From contig NZ_CP089538.1 of assembly GCF_021233055.1 (NCBI RefSeq), positions 4,294,501-4,358,500 of the forward strand: 64,000 nucleotides of DNA. The letters run 5' to 3'. The DNA is from Spirosoma oryzicola (GTDB taxonomy: Bacteria; Bacteroidota; Bacteroidia; Cytophagales; Spirosomataceae). Below, piece after piece: positions 6,792 to 64,000 of this stretch (position 1 is the first letter of the stretch; each line of letters opens with the position of its first letter). Made by a program: the position numbers and the translations under genes. The notes below the pieces were generated by a model. That model had not been told where the DNA came from, did not search any database, and was given only the letters and a program-made list of their open reading frames with translations.

Positions 6792-9700
6792 TTACAACGT
6801 ACGCTTCACTTCTTTTATTTCGAACGCTTCGATCGTGTCTCCCACTTCAATGTCATTGAAGTTTCGGACGCTCAAACCACATTCGTAGCCTGAACGCACT
6901 TCGTTAACGTCGTCTTTGAACCGTTTCAGCGCGCTGATTTCACCCGTATGAATCACGATAAAGTCGCGGATAACCCGGATTTTATTGTTCCGTTTGATGA
7001 TACCGTCCGTCACATAACAACCGGCTACTGTACCAACTTTGCTGATCTTGAACACATCACGGACTTCGATATTACCAGTCACAACCTCTTCTGTGGTTGG
7101 TGCTAGCAGACCTTCCATAGCGTCTTTGACTTCGTTGATCGCGTCGTAGATGATTGAGTACAGACGAATTTCAATCTGTTCCTGTTCTGCCAACCGCCTG
7201 GCATTAGCTGATGGCCGCACCTGGAAGCCGACGATAACCGCATCCGAAGCCGATGCCAGCAGAATATCTGACTCGGAAATCTGTCCGACCGCTTTGTGGA
7301 TGATGTTCACCTGAACTTCTTCCGTAGACAGTTGCAACAAGGAATCCGACAAGGCTTCGACCGAACCGTCCACGTCACCTTTCACAATCACATTAAGCTC
7401 TTTGAACGAGCCAATCGCTTTCCGACGGCCAATCTCTTCGAGTGTAATGTGCTTGCGGGTACGTAGCGTTTGTTCGCGCAGCAGTTGCTCCCGTTTGTTA
7501 GCAATTTCGCGGGCTTCGCGCTCCGTTTCCATCACGTTAAACTTGTCACCTGCCTGCGGAGCACCTGGCAACCCAAGAATCTGAACGGGTTGTGCTGGTC
7601 CTGCTTCTTTGATCCGCTCACCCCGGTCATTTGTCATAGCCCGAATGCGACCGTAGTGCGCACCGACAAGCATGACATCTCCCTGACGCAACGTACCATT
7701 TTCAACCAGTACTGTCGATACGTAGCCACGGCCTTTGTCGAGCGATGCTTCGATAACGGTACCAAGCGCCCGACGGTCCGGATTCGCTTTCAGTTCAAGT
7801 AATTCGGCTTCGAGCAGTACTTTTTCAAGCAGATCGTCAACGCCCATACCTGACTTGGACGAAATTTCCTGAGCCTGGTACTTACCACCCCATTCTTCAA
7901 CGAGGAAGTTCATAGCCGAAAGCTCCGTCCGTATTTTGTCAGCTTCGGCCCCCGGCTTATCTACTTTTGAGAAAGCAAATACGATAGGTACACCGGCTAC
8001 TTGTGCGTGGTTGATTGCTTCACGCGTCTGCGGCATCACGCTGTCGTCAGCCGCAATTACAATAATAACGACGTCGGTTACTTTCGCACCGCGTGCCCGC
8101 ATGGCCGTAAAGGCTTCGTGACCCGGTGTATCAAGGAACGTGATCATCCGGTCGTCAGTCGCTTTCACGCTATAGGCACCGATGTGCTGCGTGATACCAC
8201 CGGCTTCACCGGCGGCTACTTTTGCACGACGGATGTAATCAAGCAGCGACGTTTTACCGTGGTCAACGTGACCCATGATCGTAACGATTGGCGCACGAGG
8301 CTGAAGTTCATCCGGTTCGTCCGCTGTTACGTCAATACCCGCTTCCGTTTCATCTTCTGCCGATACAAACTGTACATCGTAACCGAATTCATCCGCAATA
8401 ACCGTAATCGCTTCCGCATCTAACCGCTGGTTGATCGAGACGAACATACCCAGGTTCAAACAAACCGAGATAACTTCGTTGATCGACACGTTCATAAGCG
8501 AAGCCAGATCGTTTGCCGATACGAACTCCGTTACTTTCAGGATTTTTGCTTCCAGTTCCTCCTGTTCGCTGGCTAAACGATCACGTTCAGCCCGGTCGGC
8601 CCGGCGGTCACGTCGGCGGTCAGCTCCCCGGTTGGGCGAATTACCCTGCATCCGGGCGTTTGTCTGCTGAATCGACTTACGAACATCAGCTTGCGTAGGT
8701 GCTTCACGACGGTTTCCTCCGCTACGGCCACTGTTGTTGCCACCACCTGCCCGATCACGGTTTCCACCGCTACGACCATTGTTGTTATTACCACCACCTG
8801 TCCGGTTGTTGGTATTTTGGTTGTCTGACGAAGGCTGGCTCTGAGCGTTCCGATTTTGGTTACCCTGACCTTGCGGCTGGGCGTTATTGTTCGAATTCGC
8901 AGAACGGTTTGCCGGTGCCTGGTTACGATCACCCTGTGGTCGGTTGTTATCCCGTTGTCCACCTTGGTTGCGATCACCCTGCGGCCGGTTGTTATCCCGG
9001 TTTACAGGACTACGATCACCTTGTCCGTCACGAGGTCCACGGTCATTCCGGTTTTGATTACCTTGGCCTTGTGGCTGATTACCGCCTTGATTCGGCTGGT
9101 TGGTACCACCAACAGCTCCATCGCGACCACCGCGAATGCGTTTCCGTTTTTTCTTATCGGCGTTGCTATTGCCACCACCACCCTGACGCGGGTTGTTGAC
9201 AGGCAATTCAATCTTGCCAAGAATTTTCAAACCACCAAGTTGATGGCTACCAGCCGCCCGAATTGTCTCGGTTTTAGCTGCTGGTTCCTCAGCGTCATTC
9301 GCGACTGGAGGAGTTGGCACAGGGGCAGCAGCTTTTGGCTGACTGCTTGCAGTAGTATCACGATTCTCCTGACGCGTCGGTTCCACCTTGGCAACTGGAT
9401 TATTTACAGGTTCAGCTGGTTTAGGGGTCTCCACACGAGGAGCTTCTGTACGAGCTACTGGCTGCGCTGGTTCAGGCCGTGGCTGAACAGGAGCGACCGG
9501 AGCTGGCTCGATTTTAGGCTGCGCAACGGGTGCTGGCTGAGGAGTCTCCACTTTGGGAGCTACCGCAGGAGCAGGGGTTACCACAGGTGGTGTAACGGTA
9601 GGCTTAACCTCAGCAGGTTGAACCGGCTTCGGTGTTTCTACAGGCGGCTGTGCAACTACCGGTTGTGATGGTACTGGTTTAGCAACCTCCGCTTGAGCTG

Positions 9701-58921: not shown

Positions 58922-60451
58922 ATGCCCCGCTTGTTCCTATTTATTTTTTTATTAACCAGTCTGTTCCACTGTTCTGTTTCAGTAAACGCATTTTCCGGCT
59001 CGAATTCTACTACCGACTCACTGGCAACTCAGCGTTTGTTGGCCCGTGTCGAAGCGTTTCAGTCAAGTCCAGCCGCTCGGTTTGGCACTGTAGCTTTGTC
59101 GGTTCGTCGGGTAAGCGATGGGGCTGAGATTATTGGTTATAATGCCCGCCTAAGTTTACCCTCAGCCTCTACCCTGAAGCTTATCACAACAGCTACAGCA
59201 ATGATTGTACTGGGCAGTAATTACACATACACGACAACACTGGAATACGACGGCATACTAAAGGACAGTACATTGACGGGCAATCTTTACATTCGCGGAA
59301 CGGGCGATCCTTCGCTGGGGAGTTGGCGGTTTCCAGCTTACTACGACCTGAGCGCTTTGCTGAAATTCTGGTCGGGAGCGGTTAAAGCGGCTGGCATCCG
59401 CCGGATTCAGGGCGCGGTAGTAGGCGATGCCCGCTTGTATACCGATTTGACCACGCCCGATACCTGGCCTTATGGCGATCTGGGTAATTATTACGGGGCT
59501 AACCTGAGTGCGTTGAACATCAACGAAAATCTGTATCGTGTATTTTTTAAAACTGGTAAATCAGTCAACGTTCCGGCTGGCGTATTACGAACCGACCCAT
59601 CCCTACCCTACCTCACGTTGCAGAATAGTGTTGTTACAGATGCCGCTCATACCGGCGATCAGGTTACTATTTATGGAACACCGTTTATGAATCAGCGATG
59701 GTTGACGGGCAAAGTACCCATTGGAGAGCCAGACAATGAATTCAGCGTGAAAGGATCGCTTCCCGACCCGGCCTATTTTGCGGCTTACGCTCTTCAGGAG
59801 CAGCTACGCCAAGACAGCGTAGCGATCAGCGGTTTACCCATATCCGTCGGCGGAGGATTGACCAGTACTATTACCGAAAACGGTAAGCGAACAGCATTAA
59901 ATCAGCATCGATCGCCCACGCTGGCCGAGCTGATTCAGCAAACCAATTTTCAGAGTATCAATCTGTACGCCGAAGCCCTGTTACGAACAACGGCGCTGAC
60001 GTTAAAAAAATCGGTTCGTTCGACTAGCGCTAGCATTGACGCGCTCACTGAATTCTGGAAAGCCAAAGGGGTAGATGTATCCGGTTTCCGGATTCGGGAT
60101 GGCAGTGGTTTATCAACTGTTGGCGCCCTTACCGCCGACAACATGACGGGTATTCTGAGCGTGATGGGTCGGGACAAATCGTTTCCCCAATTCTATGAAA
60201 CGATTCCGGTAGTCGGCCAGACAGGAACCGTTAGAAGCCTGGCGCGTGGCACAGCCGCAGCCGGTAACATTCGGGCAAAGAGTGGCTCTATTGAAGGCGT
60301 CCGGGCCTACGCCGGTTATTTTACCGCAGCAGACGGCGAACGGATGACATTTTGCGTGTTGGTCAACAAATTCACCCCTGGTCAAAACCGCACCGTAACG
60401 GCAGAGTTGGAAAAGATTTTTGTGGGACTGGTTGGGCTAAGTGGAAAATAG
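58922..60451 (+). CDS. dacB: D-alanyl-D-alanine carboxypeptidase/endopeptidase (PBP4, class C)
   Basis: 509 residues from the ATG at 58922, at the start of the signal peptide (PRLFLFIFLLTSLFHCSVSVNA). An 18-residue upstream extension is rejected. Active-site motifs: S83-T-L-K86 (SxxK), SINLYAE (SxN) and KSGSIEGVRAY in the KTG position. It trims or opens peptidoglycan cross-links in the periplasm. A TAAGTTTG box (58863-58870) fits a -7 element about 50 bp upstream. Ends in a long terminator. Confidence 0.94.
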   Translation: MPRLFLFIFLLTSLFHCSVSVNAFSGSNSTTDSLATQRLLARVEAFQSSPAARFGTVALSVRRVSDGAEIIGYNARLSLPSASTLKLITTATAMIVLGSNYTYTTTLEYDGILKDSTLTGNLYIRGTGDPSLGSWRFPAYYDLSALLKFWSGAVKAAGIRRIQGAVVGDARLYTDLTTPDTWPYGDLGNYYGANLSALNINENLYRVFFKTGKSVNVPAGVLRTDPSLPYLTLQNSVVTDAAHTGDQVTIYGTPFMNQRWLTGKVPIGEPDNEFSVKGSLPDPAYFAAYALQEQLRQDSVAISGLPISVGGGLTSTITENGKRTALNQHRSPTLAELIQQTNFQSINLYAEALLRTTALTLKKSVRSTSASIDALTEFWKAKGVDVSGFRIRDGSGLSTVGALTADNMTGILSVMGRDKSFPQFYETIPVVGQTGTVRSLARGTAAAGNIRAKSGSIEGVRAYAGYFTAADGERMTFCVLVNKFTPGQNRTVTAELEKIFVGLVGLSGK

Positions 60452-60455
60452 CCGA

Positions 60456-60516
60456 TAGCTGTTTGGTTTACACAACCGTCGATCCGGACCGTTGTAAACC
60501 AAACAGCTACGTTTTT
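60456..60516. terminator. Long hairpin terminator between dacB and the response regulator gene
   Basis: TAGCTGTTTGGTTTAC (60456-60471) pairs with GTAAACCAAACAGCTA (60494-60509), with an AAC/GTT extension across a bulge. T5 follows. It serves both convergent genes. Confidence 0.88.
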
Positions 60517-60979
60517 ATCCTTCTACTTCATGATCGCAAACGGTAACGACATTGAACCAATACTGGCCAATGGCTTTTGTCACTTCGCTGAGCCGCTGAA
60601 AGGTAGGCGGTTTAGTAATAAAGCTATTCGCTCCATTAAAATAGGATGTCTCGATATCGTCTTTTGCATCAGAAGTCGTTAGCACCACAATGGGAATGTG
60701 GCGAAGCTCATCGTTCGCTTTGATTTCCCGCAAAGCCTCTCGGCCGTCTTTACGGGGCATATTCAGGTCCAGCAAAATCAGCTCAGGCAACGTATGGCCC
60801 GATTGCGCATAGCGTCCCTTGTAGTTCAGAAAATCAAGCAAATCTTCCCCGTCTTCCGCGAACGAAATACGGCTGGATGGGTAATGCTGATGAAATGCTT
60901 CACGAGTGAGGTAACGATCGTCCTCATCATCGTCAACTAGCAGAATATGAATAGCTCTCTGTTGGGTTTGATCGGTCAT
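60515..60979 (-). CDS. Single-domain response regulator (Rcp1-like receiver)
   Basis: 154 residues, receiver domain only, with no output domain. LLVDDDEDDRYLT (acidic pocket D16-D18), LLDLNMPRKDG with phospho-acceptor D71, VVLTTSD and FITKPP (the conserved Lys followed by cis-Pro). Rcp1-like receivers pair with phytochrome-type kinases. The ATG at 60979 is chosen over an upstream start that would add 11 residues. Its 5' end overlaps the 3' end of the kinase gene by 47 bp in another frame, so the two are likely coupled. Confidence 0.93.
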   Translation of the reverse strand: MTDQTQQRAIHILLVDDDEDDRYLTREAFHQHYPSSRISFAEDGEDLLDFLNYKGRYAQSGHTLPELILLDLNMPRKDGREALREIKANDELRHIPIVVLTTSDAKDDIETSYFNGANSFITKPPTFQRLSEVTKAIGQYWFNVVTVCDHEVEG

Positions 60980-62420
60980 AATCTTGTAGTGATTGACTTT
61001 CAGGCAAGACAACGATAAACGTTGTTCCCTGTCCTGGCTGACTTTTAGCGGTTATGTATCCGTGGTGCGAAACCGTGACCCGCTTACAAATGGCTAGCCC
61101 GATACCTGTACCTTCAAATTCACTCTTGCCGTGCAATCGCTGGAAAACTTTAAAAATATGGTCTAAATATTTTTCGTCAAAACCAATTCCATTGTCCTGA
61201 ACCGTGATTTCCGAGTAAAGTCGTTCTGAAATCAATTCAGGGTAGGCTGACCCCTTCACAGAACGGGCCTGTATTCGAATCAACGGCTGCACATCCGGCC
61301 TGGTGAACTTCAATGCGTTGGAAATCAAGTTTGTAAACAGATGATCCATCTGACTGCTGATAGCCGGAATCGTTGGCAAGCTGCCCACCTCGACCCGAAC
61401 ATTTAGCCCCTTGATACGCAATTCCTGATCGTCAAGGATACGCTGAATAATCATACCCAACGGCACCGGTTTGAACTCTTCCTGATGGTTGGAGATGCGG
61501 GAAAAATTAAGCAGATCCTTAATCAATTTTGACATACGCTCAGCAGAATGAACAATCTTGTTCATAAACAAGAGGCTGTCGCCATCAAACAAGTTACCGT
61601 AACGATCCGTAATCAGGTTGGCAAACGACTGAATCTTCCGGAGCGGCTCCTGCAAGTCATGGCTGGCAACGAACGCAAACCGCTCTAACTCTTCGTTAGA
61701 CGATTCCAGTTGCCGGATTTGCTCCCTCAGTCGCGCTTCGTATGCTCTCAACTGGTCTTCGTTCTGCTGCCGTCTGGCTAGCTCCTGTTCCAACAGTTGA
61801 TAAGAAACAACCAGTGATAGGAATGTAAGCAGCGATAAAGCGAATATGATGATAAGCGTATTGCGGAATGAGCGGGCCGCCTGGCGGTTTCGGGTTTCCA
61901 TCAGCGACCGTTCGGTATCGACCATAACGGCAATATGCCGTCGGAGCACATCCATTCGGCGCTTACCCTCCCCGTTTAAACTGCGGGTGTAGGGCACATT
62001 CATCGAGCGATTTTTAACGCGCAACTGCGAAAGCGCCAACTTATCCGCTACCAAATGATCGAGTTTACCCGCCCGCTGTATCTGTACGGTATTGTCATTG
62101 TCGGCCATGAGCGTGTGCAGCTGCTCCAGTCGGCTTGGAAGCACCGTTATGGCTACCTGATAATTGTCCAGGTAAGCTGAATCGCTGGTGATAATATAGC
62201 CTCGCGATCCCGTTTCAACGTCTTTGACCAACGATAAAATACTTTCCAGTGAACCGACAACCTCGTAGGTGTGGCGAACGCGTTCAGTATCTGTACGATA
62301 CTGATTATAACTGTAAAATGACAAAGTGAACCCTGACGCAATGAGAACCATCGCCACGAAGAAGCCCAGCGCAATGCGTCGGTTCATAATCTTCGGGGCC
62401 GATTGTTTGAGTAATTTCAT
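60933..62420 (-). CDS. CHASE3-domain membrane sensor histidine kinase
   Basis: 495 residues from the ATG at 62420 (the nine upstream residues of a longer frame are rejected). A membrane segment (about 15-35) and a second one (about 178-200) bracket a CHASE3 periplasmic domain with VKDVETGSRGYIITSD (about 64-79). A coiled coil follows, then HisKA with FVASHDLQEPLRK (His about 254) and HATPase ending FKVFQRLHGKSEFEGTGIGLAICKRV. A TATATTTG -7 box lies at 62452-62445, giving a leader of about 18 nt. It drives the adjacent receiver. Confidence 0.94.
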   Translation of the reverse strand: MKLLKQSAPKIMNRRIALGFFVAMVLIASGFTLSFYSYNQYRTDTERVRHTYEVVGSLESILSLVKDVETGSRGYIITSDSAYLDNYQVAITVLPSRLEQLHTLMADNDNTVQIQRAGKLDHLVADKLALSQLRVKNRSMNVPYTRSLNGEGKRRMDVLRRHIAVMVDTERSLMETRNRQAARSFRNTLIIIFALSLLTFLSLVVSYQLLEQELARRQQNEDQLRAYEARLREQIRQLESSNEELERFAFVASHDLQEPLRKIQSFANLITDRYGNLFDGDSLLFMNKIVHSAERMSKLIKDLLNFSRISNHQEEFKPVPLGMIIQRILDDQELRIKGLNVRVEVGSLPTIPAISSQMDHLFTNLISNALKFTRPDVQPLIRIQARSVKGSAYPELISERLYSEITVQDNGIGFDEKYLDHIFKVFQRLHGKSEFEGTGIGLAICKRVTVSHHGYITAKSQPGQGTTFIVVLPESQSLQDYDRSNPTESYSYSAS

Positions 62421-62517
62421 TACGCTAATAAAATCTATAGACTGCAAATATAAATAAAGAAATGGGCAAACTTGCCTTTGTTAAGCCGTCTATAGAGGGT
62501 TGATCACCTGGCACTTT

Positions 62518-63057
62518 CTAGAGTGTTTCGACAACTAAATTGTGATTCGTGTAAATACACACATCAGCGGCAATGTGTAGGCTTTCGCGTACCATTTCTT
62601 CGGCGGATAACGAGGACGCATGCTTCTTTAGAGCTACGGCCGCCGATTGGGCATACACCCCACCTGACCCAATGGCTGCAATCTCGTTGTCGGGCTCAAT
62701 AACATCACCCGTACCTGATACCAGCAGCAAATCATCTTTGGTAGCGACAATCAACATCGCTTCCAGTTTGCGTAAATAGCGGTCTGTACGCCACTCTTTT
62801 GCCAGTTCGATAGCCGCTCGCTTCAGATTACCGCCGTAAGCGTTCAGCTTTTCTTCAAATCGTTCGATTAGTGTAAAGGCGTCAGCCGTTGAACCGGCAA
62901 AGCCAGCCAGCACTTTACCGCCCATTAGTACGCGAACTTTACGGACATTACTTTTGGCAACGGTATTGCCCATAGTGGCCTGGCCATCGGCGCCTAGTGC
63001 GACTTGACCATTGTGCCGGATACCGACCACCGTAGTTGCATGAATTATAGGTTGCAT
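62518..63057 (-). CDS. hslV: ATP-dependent protease proteolytic subunit HslV (ClpQ)
   Basis: 179 residues. The mature N-terminal Thr nucleophile comes after processing of [25 protein letters not shown]. The [14 protein letters not shown] segment and the [11 protein letters not shown] end are typical. HslV forms a twelve-subunit chamber that works with the HslU unfoldase. hslU is not in the window, which is unusual since the pair is often adjacent. It is upstream of the histidine kinase gene on the same strand. Confidence 0.96.
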
Positions 63058-63153
63058 GGAATAAAATTGTTAGCTTCTATAACGCACAAAAGCCTGTTTA
63101 CGGTTCATGTAGTGCCGTTTGCTCATCTCCCATAAGGCGTCGTGATGCAGAAG

Positions 63154-63633
63154 TCATTCTTTCACTTCGGCAAATGGGATAGGCCGATTAACGCTCTCTT
63201 CCAGGGATATAAACGTTTCGGTGCGTTGAATACCAGCCACTTTTTGAATCTTGTCGTGCAATACTTCACGCAGATGCTGCGTGTCGCGGCAGACGATTTT
63301 GGCAAAAATGCTGTAGATACCCGTTGTGTAATGAACGTTAACTACCTCCGGAATTTTTTCCAGTTGTTCGGACACTTCACCATACAGTGAGCTTTTATCG
63401 AGGTAAATTCCCAGAAAGGCGCTAATGTCCCAACCCAGTTTGGCGTGATCGATCACCAGTTGCGACCCGCGAACGATACCCATCTGCTTTAACTTGTTCA
63501 TTCGAACGTGAACCGTACCTCCCGAAACAAAAATACGTTTACCGATTTCGGTGTAAGGCATGTTGGCGTCCTGCATTAATAAACTCAGTATTTTTAGATC
63601 AGTATTATCAATTTCTAAATTTTTCTCGGTCAT
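63154..63633 (-). CDS. Lrp/AsnC family transcriptional regulator
   Basis: 159 residues from the ATG at 63633 (MTEKNLEID). An N-terminal helix-turn-helix (about 8-60: DLKILSLLMQDANMPYTEIGKRIFVSGGTVHVRMNKLKQMG) precedes the RAM ligand-binding domain (about 70-150: ISAFLGIYLDKSSLYGEVSEQLEKIPEVVNVHYTTG). Family members sense amino acids and regulate amino-acid metabolism or transport. It is divergent from the tRNA-like gene, separated by a 170-bp AT-rich region. Confidence 0.93.
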   Translation of the reverse strand: MTEKNLEIDNTDLKILSLLMQDANMPYTEIGKRIFVSGGTVHVRMNKLKQMGIVRGSQLVIDHAKLGWDISAFLGIYLDKSSLYGEVSEQLEKIPEVVNVHYTTGIYSIFAKIVCRDTQHLREVLHDKIQKVAGIQRTETFISLEESVNRPIPFAEVKE

Positions 63634-63716
63634 TTTTAGTTTGTTTTTGATAACTGTTAACAATAATAGCCATTTTTTAAATATATTATAAATTTTGCGA
63701 ATTTTTTATATGAAAT

Positions 63717-63748
63717 TTGCAATAGAGCAATAGACTGTATTATCTTTG
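63717..63748 (+). promoter_or_regulatory. Bacteroidota housekeeping promoter driving the tRNA-like gene
   Basis: TTG (63717-63719, within TTTG), 21 nt, TATCTTTG (63741-63748). The predicted start is near 63755, giving a 5' leader of about 53 nt. No protein gene on the plus strand begins before the RNA, so the RNA is its evident target. Confidence 0.7.
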
Positions 63749-63807
63749 CATTGTCAAGTTGATCGAGCGGGGTCACACGCCGGTCTTCTTGATAACTTTT
63801 CTCACAC

Positions 63808-63965
63808 TGTAGGATGTCGAAATTGGCAGACGTGCCCTCCTGTCTCGGGGGTGGTGATAAAGGATAAACGCAGCATAATGCCGCCTGCAAAGGCGACTGG
63901 GGTTGACCACCAGAGTTGTACTGTGGCTAACTGCACCGTGGGCGGTTCGAGTCCCCCTCCTACAG
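63808..63965 (+). tRNA. tRNA-like gene with Asp (GUC) anticodon and an 89-nt insert at the variable loop
   Basis: TGTAGGA (63808-63814) pairs perfectly with TCCTACA (63958-63964); C63807-G63965 could extend it. The D-arm is TCG-AAATTGGCAGA-CGT with a G18G19-like GG (63825-63826) and one T-T mismatch at the 10-25 position. The anticodon arm is CCCTC-CTGTCTC-GGGGG (63835-63851), with U33, anticodon GUC and C38. The T-arm is GGCGG-TTCGAGT-CCCCC (63941-63957), with the canonical TTCGA and one C-C mismatch. Of the E. coli tRNA-Asp identity features, anticodon GUC, C38, the G2-C71 pair and discriminator G73 are all present. Position 37 is T where decoding tRNAs have a purine. Between the anticodon and T arms lie 89 nt (63852-63940) that can fold into several hairpins. 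No CCA is encoded. It could be a functional tRNA with a giant variable arm, an intron-containing tRNA or a non-decoding RNA. Confidence 0.7.
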
Positions 63966-64000
63966 CATTTGGTTTTTAGTTTGTTGATGAAGTGTAATTG

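Follow-up and report, generated by a model that had tools for sequence, protein, structure and literature searches.

The locus analysed here raises the question of why a bacterium that has an ordinary tRNA-Asp also encodes a second tRNA-like RNA, which carries the aspartate anticodon and in which a large domain takes the place of the variable loop. The element lies near the right end of the window, the whole stretch of 64,000 nucleotides from Spirosoma oryzicola that was analysed. We have found that it is real and strongly conserved, having a class II tRNA fold in which the size of the variable domain differs between copies. As judged from sequence comparison, it is probably a non-decoding, tRNA-like RNA whose dedicated task is to act as the carrier in tRNA-dependent formation of asparagine.

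The RNA is encoded on the plus strand and runs from T1 to C74 (63808..63966; T1 at 63808, G73 at 63965 and C74 at 63966), with a score of 140.8 bits in the covariance model R1. The 5' strand of the acceptor stem (63808..63814) pairs with 63958-63964 in seven of seven positions, U1-A72 lying at 63808/63964 and G2-C71 at 63809/63963. It is followed on the same strand by the D arm (63817..63833), in which a stem of 63817-63819/63831-63833 closes the loop AAATTGGCAGA (63820-63830), and by the anticodon arm (63835..63851), with its stem at 63835-63839/63847-63851, the loop CTGTCTC at 63840-63846 and GUC at 63842-63844. The expanded variable domain (63853..63937, +) was delimited on the basis of covariation; its closing stem, GGTG/CACC (63853-63856/63934-63937), spans 85 nt between the anticodon arm and the T arm, and its interior holds an internal loop, GGATAAA (63862-63868)/CTAA (63927-63930), a helix of 63869-63875/63919-63925, and hairpins between the two strands of that helix. 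The T arm (63940..63957, +) carries the loop TTCGAGT at 63946-63952. An earlier note, made from the letters of the window, had placed the element correctly and was right about the fully paired acceptor stem, the CTGTCTC and TTCGAGT loops and the GGTG/CACC pairing; its list of tRNA landmarks stands with one correction, as the T stem contains a bulged C in this copy (GGG[C]GG/CCCCC). The single base by which it had set the anticodon loop apart from that of tRNA-Asp was also borne out in the organism itself. At least 46 tRNA matches were found in the genome (150 of 309 candidates scored), including an ordinary tRNA-Asp with G1-C72 and the loop CTGTCAC, as against CTGTCTC in the element. In seven tRNAs of this genome whose 3' ends were compared, the gene stops at C74 in five, includes CC in one and, in the case of tRNA-Asp, has the whole CCA; thus, the encoded G73-C74 end of the element resembles that of local tRNA genes.

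Standard annotation tools passed the element by. No match was obtained at E <= 1 with the Rfam 15 covariance models, including those for tRNA, tmRNA and group I introns, in positions 60000-64000 of the window. In the own-genome locus that reaches beyond the window end (L032), a search of positions 7600-8200 at E <= 5 returned only an AsrC match, which was below the gathering score and outside the element. ARAGORN did not call the element in the window or in L032 and reported no tmRNA there, and on 40 loci of relatives it found one tRNA, the element not being among its calls. The earlier note had allowed for an intron, but among these Rfam models no known intron family matched the insert, which sits in the variable region and contains covarying stems. 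No paper on the element was found among the openly licensed papers of PubMed Central.

Folding of the single sequence was uninformative, the minimum free energy being ordinary (z -0.01), and therefore the case for the structure rests on covariation. The structure that was scored consists of 31 hand-placed pairs, comprising the cloverleaf, the variable-arm stem and the distal helix. On 45 diverse sequences (alignment A1) 94.1% of these pairs were standard, compared with at most 60.9% when the structure was slid along the alignment, and double-sided changes were seen in 18 of the 31. In the same 45 sequences the T stem was paired in 100% of cells, with double-sided changes in three of five pairs, and the D stem has such changes in two of its three pairs, the first being T-T in the window copy. 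The acceptor stem of 7 bp and T stem of 5 bp fit, and since most elements are preceded by C at position -1, G73 might form an eighth pair with it. Within the variable domain, the CGCC/GGCG helix drawn in the earlier note was supported where present (89.4% paired, double changes in 4/4 pairs). The hairpin that it had proposed at 63902-63910/63923-63931 turned out to be weak (79.4% of cells paired, double changes in 2/8 pairs), and its 3' strand competes with the helix to 63869-63875, which shows double changes in 7/7 pairs yet is broken in many rows (74.7% paired).

Across loci the variable domain is made up of a 4-bp stem, a 3-bp helix that adjoins the conserved GATAAA/CTAA internal loop, and a distal part that differs in size. 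When counted in the rows that fit the pattern (46 of 74 viral and 75 of 90 bacterial), the 3-bp helix was paired in 91% of the viral rows versus 45% in shuffles, and in 78% of the bacterial rows versus 63% in shuffles. The domain varies greatly in size, the elements being 109 to 176 nt long. In one locus (L335, positions 1501-1577, genome G101) a 77-nt form was found in which the variable domain has shrunk to an ordinary short loop. This form has the lowest score of the 96 rows scored by the covariance model (69.4 bits), and its genome, which is GlnRS-negative, was counted as RNA-negative at the threshold used in spite of it; nevertheless, U1-A72, a CTATCTC loop, G73 and C74 are all kept. As only a short loop is left in L335, the large variable domain has been dispensable at least once. 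This reduction, together with the range of sizes, weakens the proposal of the earlier note that a regulatory domain might have been added to a tRNA.

Conservation in related genomes, which the earlier note had singled out as a check, was confirmed. A DNA search located the element in 115 of 149 relatives, far beyond chance, and the covariance model, applied at E <= 1e-16 to the best 12 to 20 candidates per genome, in 121 of the 149 and in 44 of the 246 class genomes. The scores of full elements range from 77 to 152 bits. When the best 12 to 20 candidates of each genome were scored in a phylum sample of 198, matches over 80 bits were obtained in 22 genomes, all inside the class, and none over 80 bits was seen in the 149 genomes outside it. 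Among named genomes, the element pattern was seen in Spirosoma, Dyadobacter, Runella and Algoriphagus, to give examples. Most relatives have one copy. Tandem arrays were also observed, with six copies in L066 (3003-4108), four in L065 (2950-3729), five in L159 (3687-4630) and three in L383 (1501-1870), and the variable domains differ between the tandem copies of L065 and L066. The element is also common on viral contigs, where 91 stretches were found by one pattern and 98 by another that leaves the anticodon loop unconstrained, 114 different ones in all; each of the 90 of these 114 loci that were scored matched at 80 bits or more. These are IMG/VR contigs, and they hold the element although distant blastn searches with the window element against public records of phages and plasmids, and with one viral element against those of phages, gave no match.

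The bases that have been kept point to what the RNA might do. All of the 90 unique bacterial elements have U1-A72, G2-C71, U35, C36, C38, G73 and C74, and 87 have G34, which is replaced by A in two and by C in one. At position 37, 87 elements have U, two C and one G, so that a pyrimidine is present in 89/90, and U33 is found in 80 and lost in 10. Among 74 unique viral elements, which come from a sample in which most loci were found by a pattern fixing the loop CTGTCTC (71 of the 90 scored, against 19 from the scan that leaves the loop unconstrained), GUC and C38 are invariant, 73 have a pyrimidine at 37 and 73 have U33, one having lost it, and U1-A72 occurs in 68, with A1-U72 in five and one cut off. 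These base counts exclude two viral loci, L362 (loop CAGTCAC) and L363 (loop TTGTCTG, G38), as well as L335.

Aspartate identity has been ascribed to G73, G34, U35, C36 and C38, G2-C71 making a minor contribution (PMC9976931), and amidotransferases have been described as relying on U1-A72 (PMC9976931; for GatCAB, PMC4206432). In the genome studied here tRNA-Asp has G1-C72, and both tRNA-Asn and tRNA-Gln have U1-A72; thus, the RNA joins the anticodon of aspartate to the mark read by the amidotransferase. When compared with an elongator tRNA-Asp, it possesses GUC (G34 with the exceptions given above), C38, G73 and G2-C71, and departs from it in the purine 37, in U33, which some copies have lost, in the G1-C72 pair and in the short variable loop, which is present only in L335; when compared with a substrate of tRNA-dependent asparagine synthesis, it has the expected U1-A72 in all bacterial and most viral copies. 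G1-C72 is reported to be strictly conserved in bacterial tRNA-Asp and to help position the 3' end on the AspRS of E. coli (PMC9976931), so that an RNA with U1-A72 may be charged less well or require a different AspRS. In the formation of Asp-tRNA-Asn by a non-discriminating AspRS, however, U1-A72 can be tolerated (PMC4206432). Taken together, the requirements of decoding seem to have been relaxed, with a pyrimidine at 37 and a variable position 33, while the aspartate identity bases stay. Of the options raised in the earlier note, charging by AspRS for use off the ribosome is the one favoured by this combination of kept and departing bases.

As U33 is present in those 80 bacterial and 73 viral copies, sequence alone leaves decoding possible. 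A true tRNA that reads Asp codons in spite of its unusual body, and which phages carry as they do other tRNAs, would agree with the GUC anticodon, the U33 of most copies and the intact landmarks, as well as with the finding that 20 of 24 viral loci scanned contain other tRNA genes. Yet an ordinary tRNA-Asp(gtc) was found in six of these viral loci and in the genome studied here, the pyrimidine at 37 and the loss of U33 in 10 of 90 bacterial elements do not suit a decoding role, U1-A72 stands in place of the G1-C72 of tRNA-Asp, and the coupling to gatB described next would be left unexplained. We therefore regard a decoding function as very unlikely.

If the RNA is a carrier for asparagine formation, it should be a client of GatCAB. 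Among the 149 relatives, AsnRS was over its cut-off in 144 and GlnRS in 108, and GatB matches were obtained in 142; GlnRS was over the cut-off in 96 of the 246 class genomes. Where GlnRS is present, GatCAB is not needed for Gln-tRNA, and the RNA and gatB are then expected to stand or fall together if one is the client of the other; as AsnRS is present in nearly all of these relatives, GatCAB has no evident translational task in the genomes with GlnRS. In the class genomes with GlnRS, the RNA and stand-alone gatB agreed in 96 of 96, 29 having both and 67 neither (Fisher p 3e-25, a value that overstates the support because the genomes are not independent and kinship was ignored), and the families f23, f24 and f59 each contain both states. 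The 67 genomes without the RNA comprise 53 with no gatB match, seven with a divergent gatB, all of family f68, and seven with weak matches only, the latter two groups being counted as without stand-alone gatB and any genome absent from a list of positives being taken as negative; the genome lists, compiled by hand, agree with the tallies of the separate searches. The 108 relatives with GlnRS gave a similar picture, as 96 have both, nine neither and none the RNA only, and three have gatB without the RNA (G025, G043 and G059, the last of which is 66% complete). Four relatives, G011, G015, G047 and G069, are below the glnS cut-off and lie outside this count; G011 was counted as without both, yet holds a 65-nt piece of the RNA in a genome that is 80% complete. 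In the 150 class genomes in which GlnRS was not over the cut-off, stand-alone gatB was found in 147 and the RNA in 15, all 15 with gatB. Every RNA-positive genome encodes gatB, 121/121 among relatives and 44/44 in the class.

The genome studied here has no asnB over the cut-off, as judged by E-value (8.7e-50). In RNA-positive members of the family asnB was over the cut-off, counted by E-value, in 27 of 81, and hence the RNA is not the sole source of asparagine there. The idea that asnB is a simple complement of the RNA was considered and gave no clear pattern.

The same coupling could be produced by an uncharged RNA with the structural role of a scaffold for AspRS and GatCAB, the complex of which would work on tRNA-Asn, which in this genome has U1-A72 itself, and it is known that tRNA can play a scaffold role in transamidosomes. 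The invariant G73-C74 and the conserved acceptor stem suggest, on the other hand, that the 3' end is used, and we consider the chance that the RNA is a mere scaffold to be very small indeed.

Further information was provided by divergent gatB genes, most of them from genomes lacking the RNA. Six weaker gatB matches (E 1e-100 to 1e-110) were inspected, and all were found to be single chains in which GatB is followed by a bacterial AspRS. The open reading frames are about 1100 aa long and are located at L384 754-4059, L386 1289-4639, L387 2450-5767, L388 2405-5728, L389 1527-4904 and L390 2330-4957, the last being cut by the contig end. Both halves pass their curated cut-offs (333 to 366 bits versus 314.8 for gatB, and 387 to 657 versus 373.85 for aspS_bact), and each fusion adjoins an open reading frame that best matches gatA, below the gatA cut-off (424 to 443 versus 481 bits). 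Five of the six genomes are without the RNA; the sixth, G138, also has a stand-alone gatB and the RNA. It appears, then, that in some RNA-less lineages one enzyme may join both of the activities that we assign to the partners of the RNA. No gatB match was obtained in 53 of the 67 RNA-less class genomes with GlnRS, and hence the fusion does not stand in for the RNA everywhere.

A second conserved motif, TTTGGTTTTTAGTTTGTTGATGAAGT (26 nt; 63968..63993, +), lies directly 3' of the RNA, and is the single match in the window when up to three mismatches are allowed. It was found within 150 nt 3' of 49 of 83 elements and, by an exact pattern scan, on no viral contig. Three of the six fusion genes are followed by a copy as well, some 90 to 150 nt past the stop (L384 640-664, L387 5914-5938 and L389 1366-1390). 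The copy of the genome studied here, together with a terminator-like hairpin, occupies about 7968-8030 of L032; the hairpin (about 8004-8030), which lies just outside the window, was seen by eye, and a terminator scan did not report a hairpin behind the motif. As the motif follows both the RNA and the fusion genes, it links the RNA with the fusion operon through a common genetic context, and it may itself be a small RNA distinct from the element. Further downstream in this genome the next gene, recognised by eye, is lepA (EF4; L032 8018-9910), and the lepA family was found in seven of 41 loci.

Upstream, the consensus promoter that the earlier note had seen facing the element is present (TTTG...TATCTTTG, 63716..63748, +, with TTTG at 63716-63719 and TATCTTTG at 63741-63748), and we take it to be of the Bacteroidota type. 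TAnnTTTG occurs within 110 nt upstream in 66 of 83 elements versus 6.5% of base shuffles, 30 of the 83 elements with scanned flanks coming from the same genus. Divergent from the RNA is a gene for an AsnC/Lrp-family regulator (63154..63663, minus strand; Pfam AsnC_trans_reg), the best NCBIfam match of which is AsnC at 161.8 bits, under the cut-off of 227. An AsnC-type gene is present in 36 of 41 loci. Of 119 named loci, among which 99 extend upstream by 1 kb or more, 59 have it in divergent orientation within 2 kb; it is missing in the other 60, some of which are too short upstream. Ten neighbours from seven loci without an AsnC-type gene belonged to unrelated families or to none. AsnC of E. 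coli responds to asparagine, and the presence of such a neighbour fits the asparagine reading but proves nothing.

This neighbourhood also gives ground for proposing that the RNA is a sensor, a charging-dependent riboregulator of the AspRS-GatCAB system, perhaps of the AsnC-type gene or acting with the downstream motif. The adjoining gene, the conserved motif next to the RNA and the GATAAA/CTAA internal loop kept in the variable domain could all be accommodated by such a regulator. Nevertheless, half of the named loci (60/119) have no AsnC-type neighbour, the viral contigs bear the RNA without the motif (exact scan), the variable domain was lost in L335 while the identity bases stay, and a GatB-AspRS fusion in RNA-less genomes fits an enzymatic role better. 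A regulatory function is thus unlikely, though less so than the other alternatives weighed here.

The viral copies have features of their own. Ten large open reading frames from eight viral contigs include terminase, portal, major head protein and DNA polymerase, and RNA ligase genes were found on two of the eight contigs sampled (L266 and L285). In 48 of 68 viral forms a palindrome of 8 to 12 nt occurs after a GACCAC motif, compared with 7.6% in base shuffles, which suggests that viral RNAs might form dimers through self-pairing between two molecules. In bacterial forms palindromes of at least 8 nt were seen in five of 54 versus 8.5% in shuffles, so that there is no excess and self-pairing is unsupported there. 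Perfect palindromes of many different sequences were observed in the variable domain of viral loci such as L222, L224, L225, L228 and L259, and a hairpin-like insert in the D loop was noticed in the viral copies L228, L248, L259, L261, L275, L302 and L309.

It could be argued from the 114 viral contigs, the RNA ligase genes on two of eight of them, the palindromic loops and the occasional D-loop inserts that the RNA, which hosts and phages have in common, acts as a decoy against defence systems or is itself attacked by tRNA-cutting immunity. A role of this kind would leave unexplained both the coupling to gatB in genomes with GlnRS and the GatB-AspRS fusion. In addition, the mostly single bacterial copy, with a common neighbour in 36 of 41 loci, is unlike a mobile defence locus. 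We find this explanation highly improbable.

Returning to the carrier for asparagine formation, a route in five steps can be proposed. The RNA would first be processed to G73-CCA, as local tRNAs are, and would then be aspartylated by AspRS by way of G34/U35/C36, C38, G73 and G2-C71. GatCAB would recognise U1-A72 and amidate Asp-RNA to Asn-RNA. The pyrimidine at 37, the variable position 33 and, in most genomes, the bulky variable arm would keep the RNA out of decoding, so that asparagine is not read into Asp codons, and finally the asparagine would be released or handed on. The product is likely to be free asparagine, though the asparagine might instead be transferred to another acceptor. Comparison between genomes argues for the structure, the identity bases, the coupling to stand-alone GatB and the presence of a GatB-AspRS fusion in some RNA-less lineages, and it is from these that we infer the chemistry of the five steps, above all of the last two. 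Phages may bring their own copy in order to keep up the supply of asparagine during infection. The full picture, in which the RNA is a biosynthetic carrier (aspartate on, asparagine off), the fusion a protein-only substitute in sister lineages and the viral copies auxiliary metabolic RNAs of phages that possibly dimerise, is put forward tentatively, its chances as a whole being just short of even.

Such an RNA, common on viral contigs, would constitute an undescribed RNA family devoted to the synthesis of an amino acid and not to decoding. In form it comes close to the class II tRNA-Leu genes of the same genomes, which share the D loop GAAAYTGG.AG and the 3-bp D stem; the model R1 also matches tRNA-sized sequences, at up to 62 bits, and two of those in the genome studied here are tRNA-Leu genes. 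The element is set apart from tRNA-Leu by G73 instead of A73, by its GUC loop, by the size of the domain and by its scores of 77 to 152 bits. Like tmRNA it is a tRNA-like molecule with an extra domain, but no coding tag was seen in it, and the D and anticodon arms are complete.

Other tRNA-like RNAs offer partial parallels. The tRNA-Other of Bacillus cereus, a pseudo-tRNA, is likewise thought to act outside translation; it differs in its Trp anticodon and in its poor aminoacylation with lysine in vitro, and the sections of that report used here make no link to GatCAB (PMC3399842). Allo-tRNA and tRNA-Sec also combine a non-standard architecture with a long variable arm, but they have a longer acceptor domain (12 bp in allo-tRNA, as 8/4 or 9/3) and are used in translation (PMC7609411), whereas the RNA described here has an aspartate anticodon and what appears to be a 7/5 body.

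In chemistry the nearest system is the tRNA-dependent asparagine synthesis of, for example, Bdellovibrio, which employs a non-discriminating AspRS, tRNA-Asn and GatCAB (PMC4206432). As in our proposal, AspRS attaches aspartate to an RNA with U1-A72 and GatCAB amidates it, and this type of synthesis was also proposed for organisms that have both AsnRS and GlnRS (PMC4206432). The RNA studied here differs from tRNA-Asn in its aspartate anticodon, so that a discriminating AspRS might charge it too, as well as in its expanded variable domain, its non-decoding features and its copies on viral contigs. It has been considered a puzzle that GatCAB is kept despite the presence of AsnRS and GlnRS, a combination reported for 68 genera, in some of which GatCAB was called possibly vestigial (PMC4206432). 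If the RNA is indeed a dedicated carrier for asparagine formation, this would answer, for the group studied here, why bacteria with both synthetases keep GatCAB.
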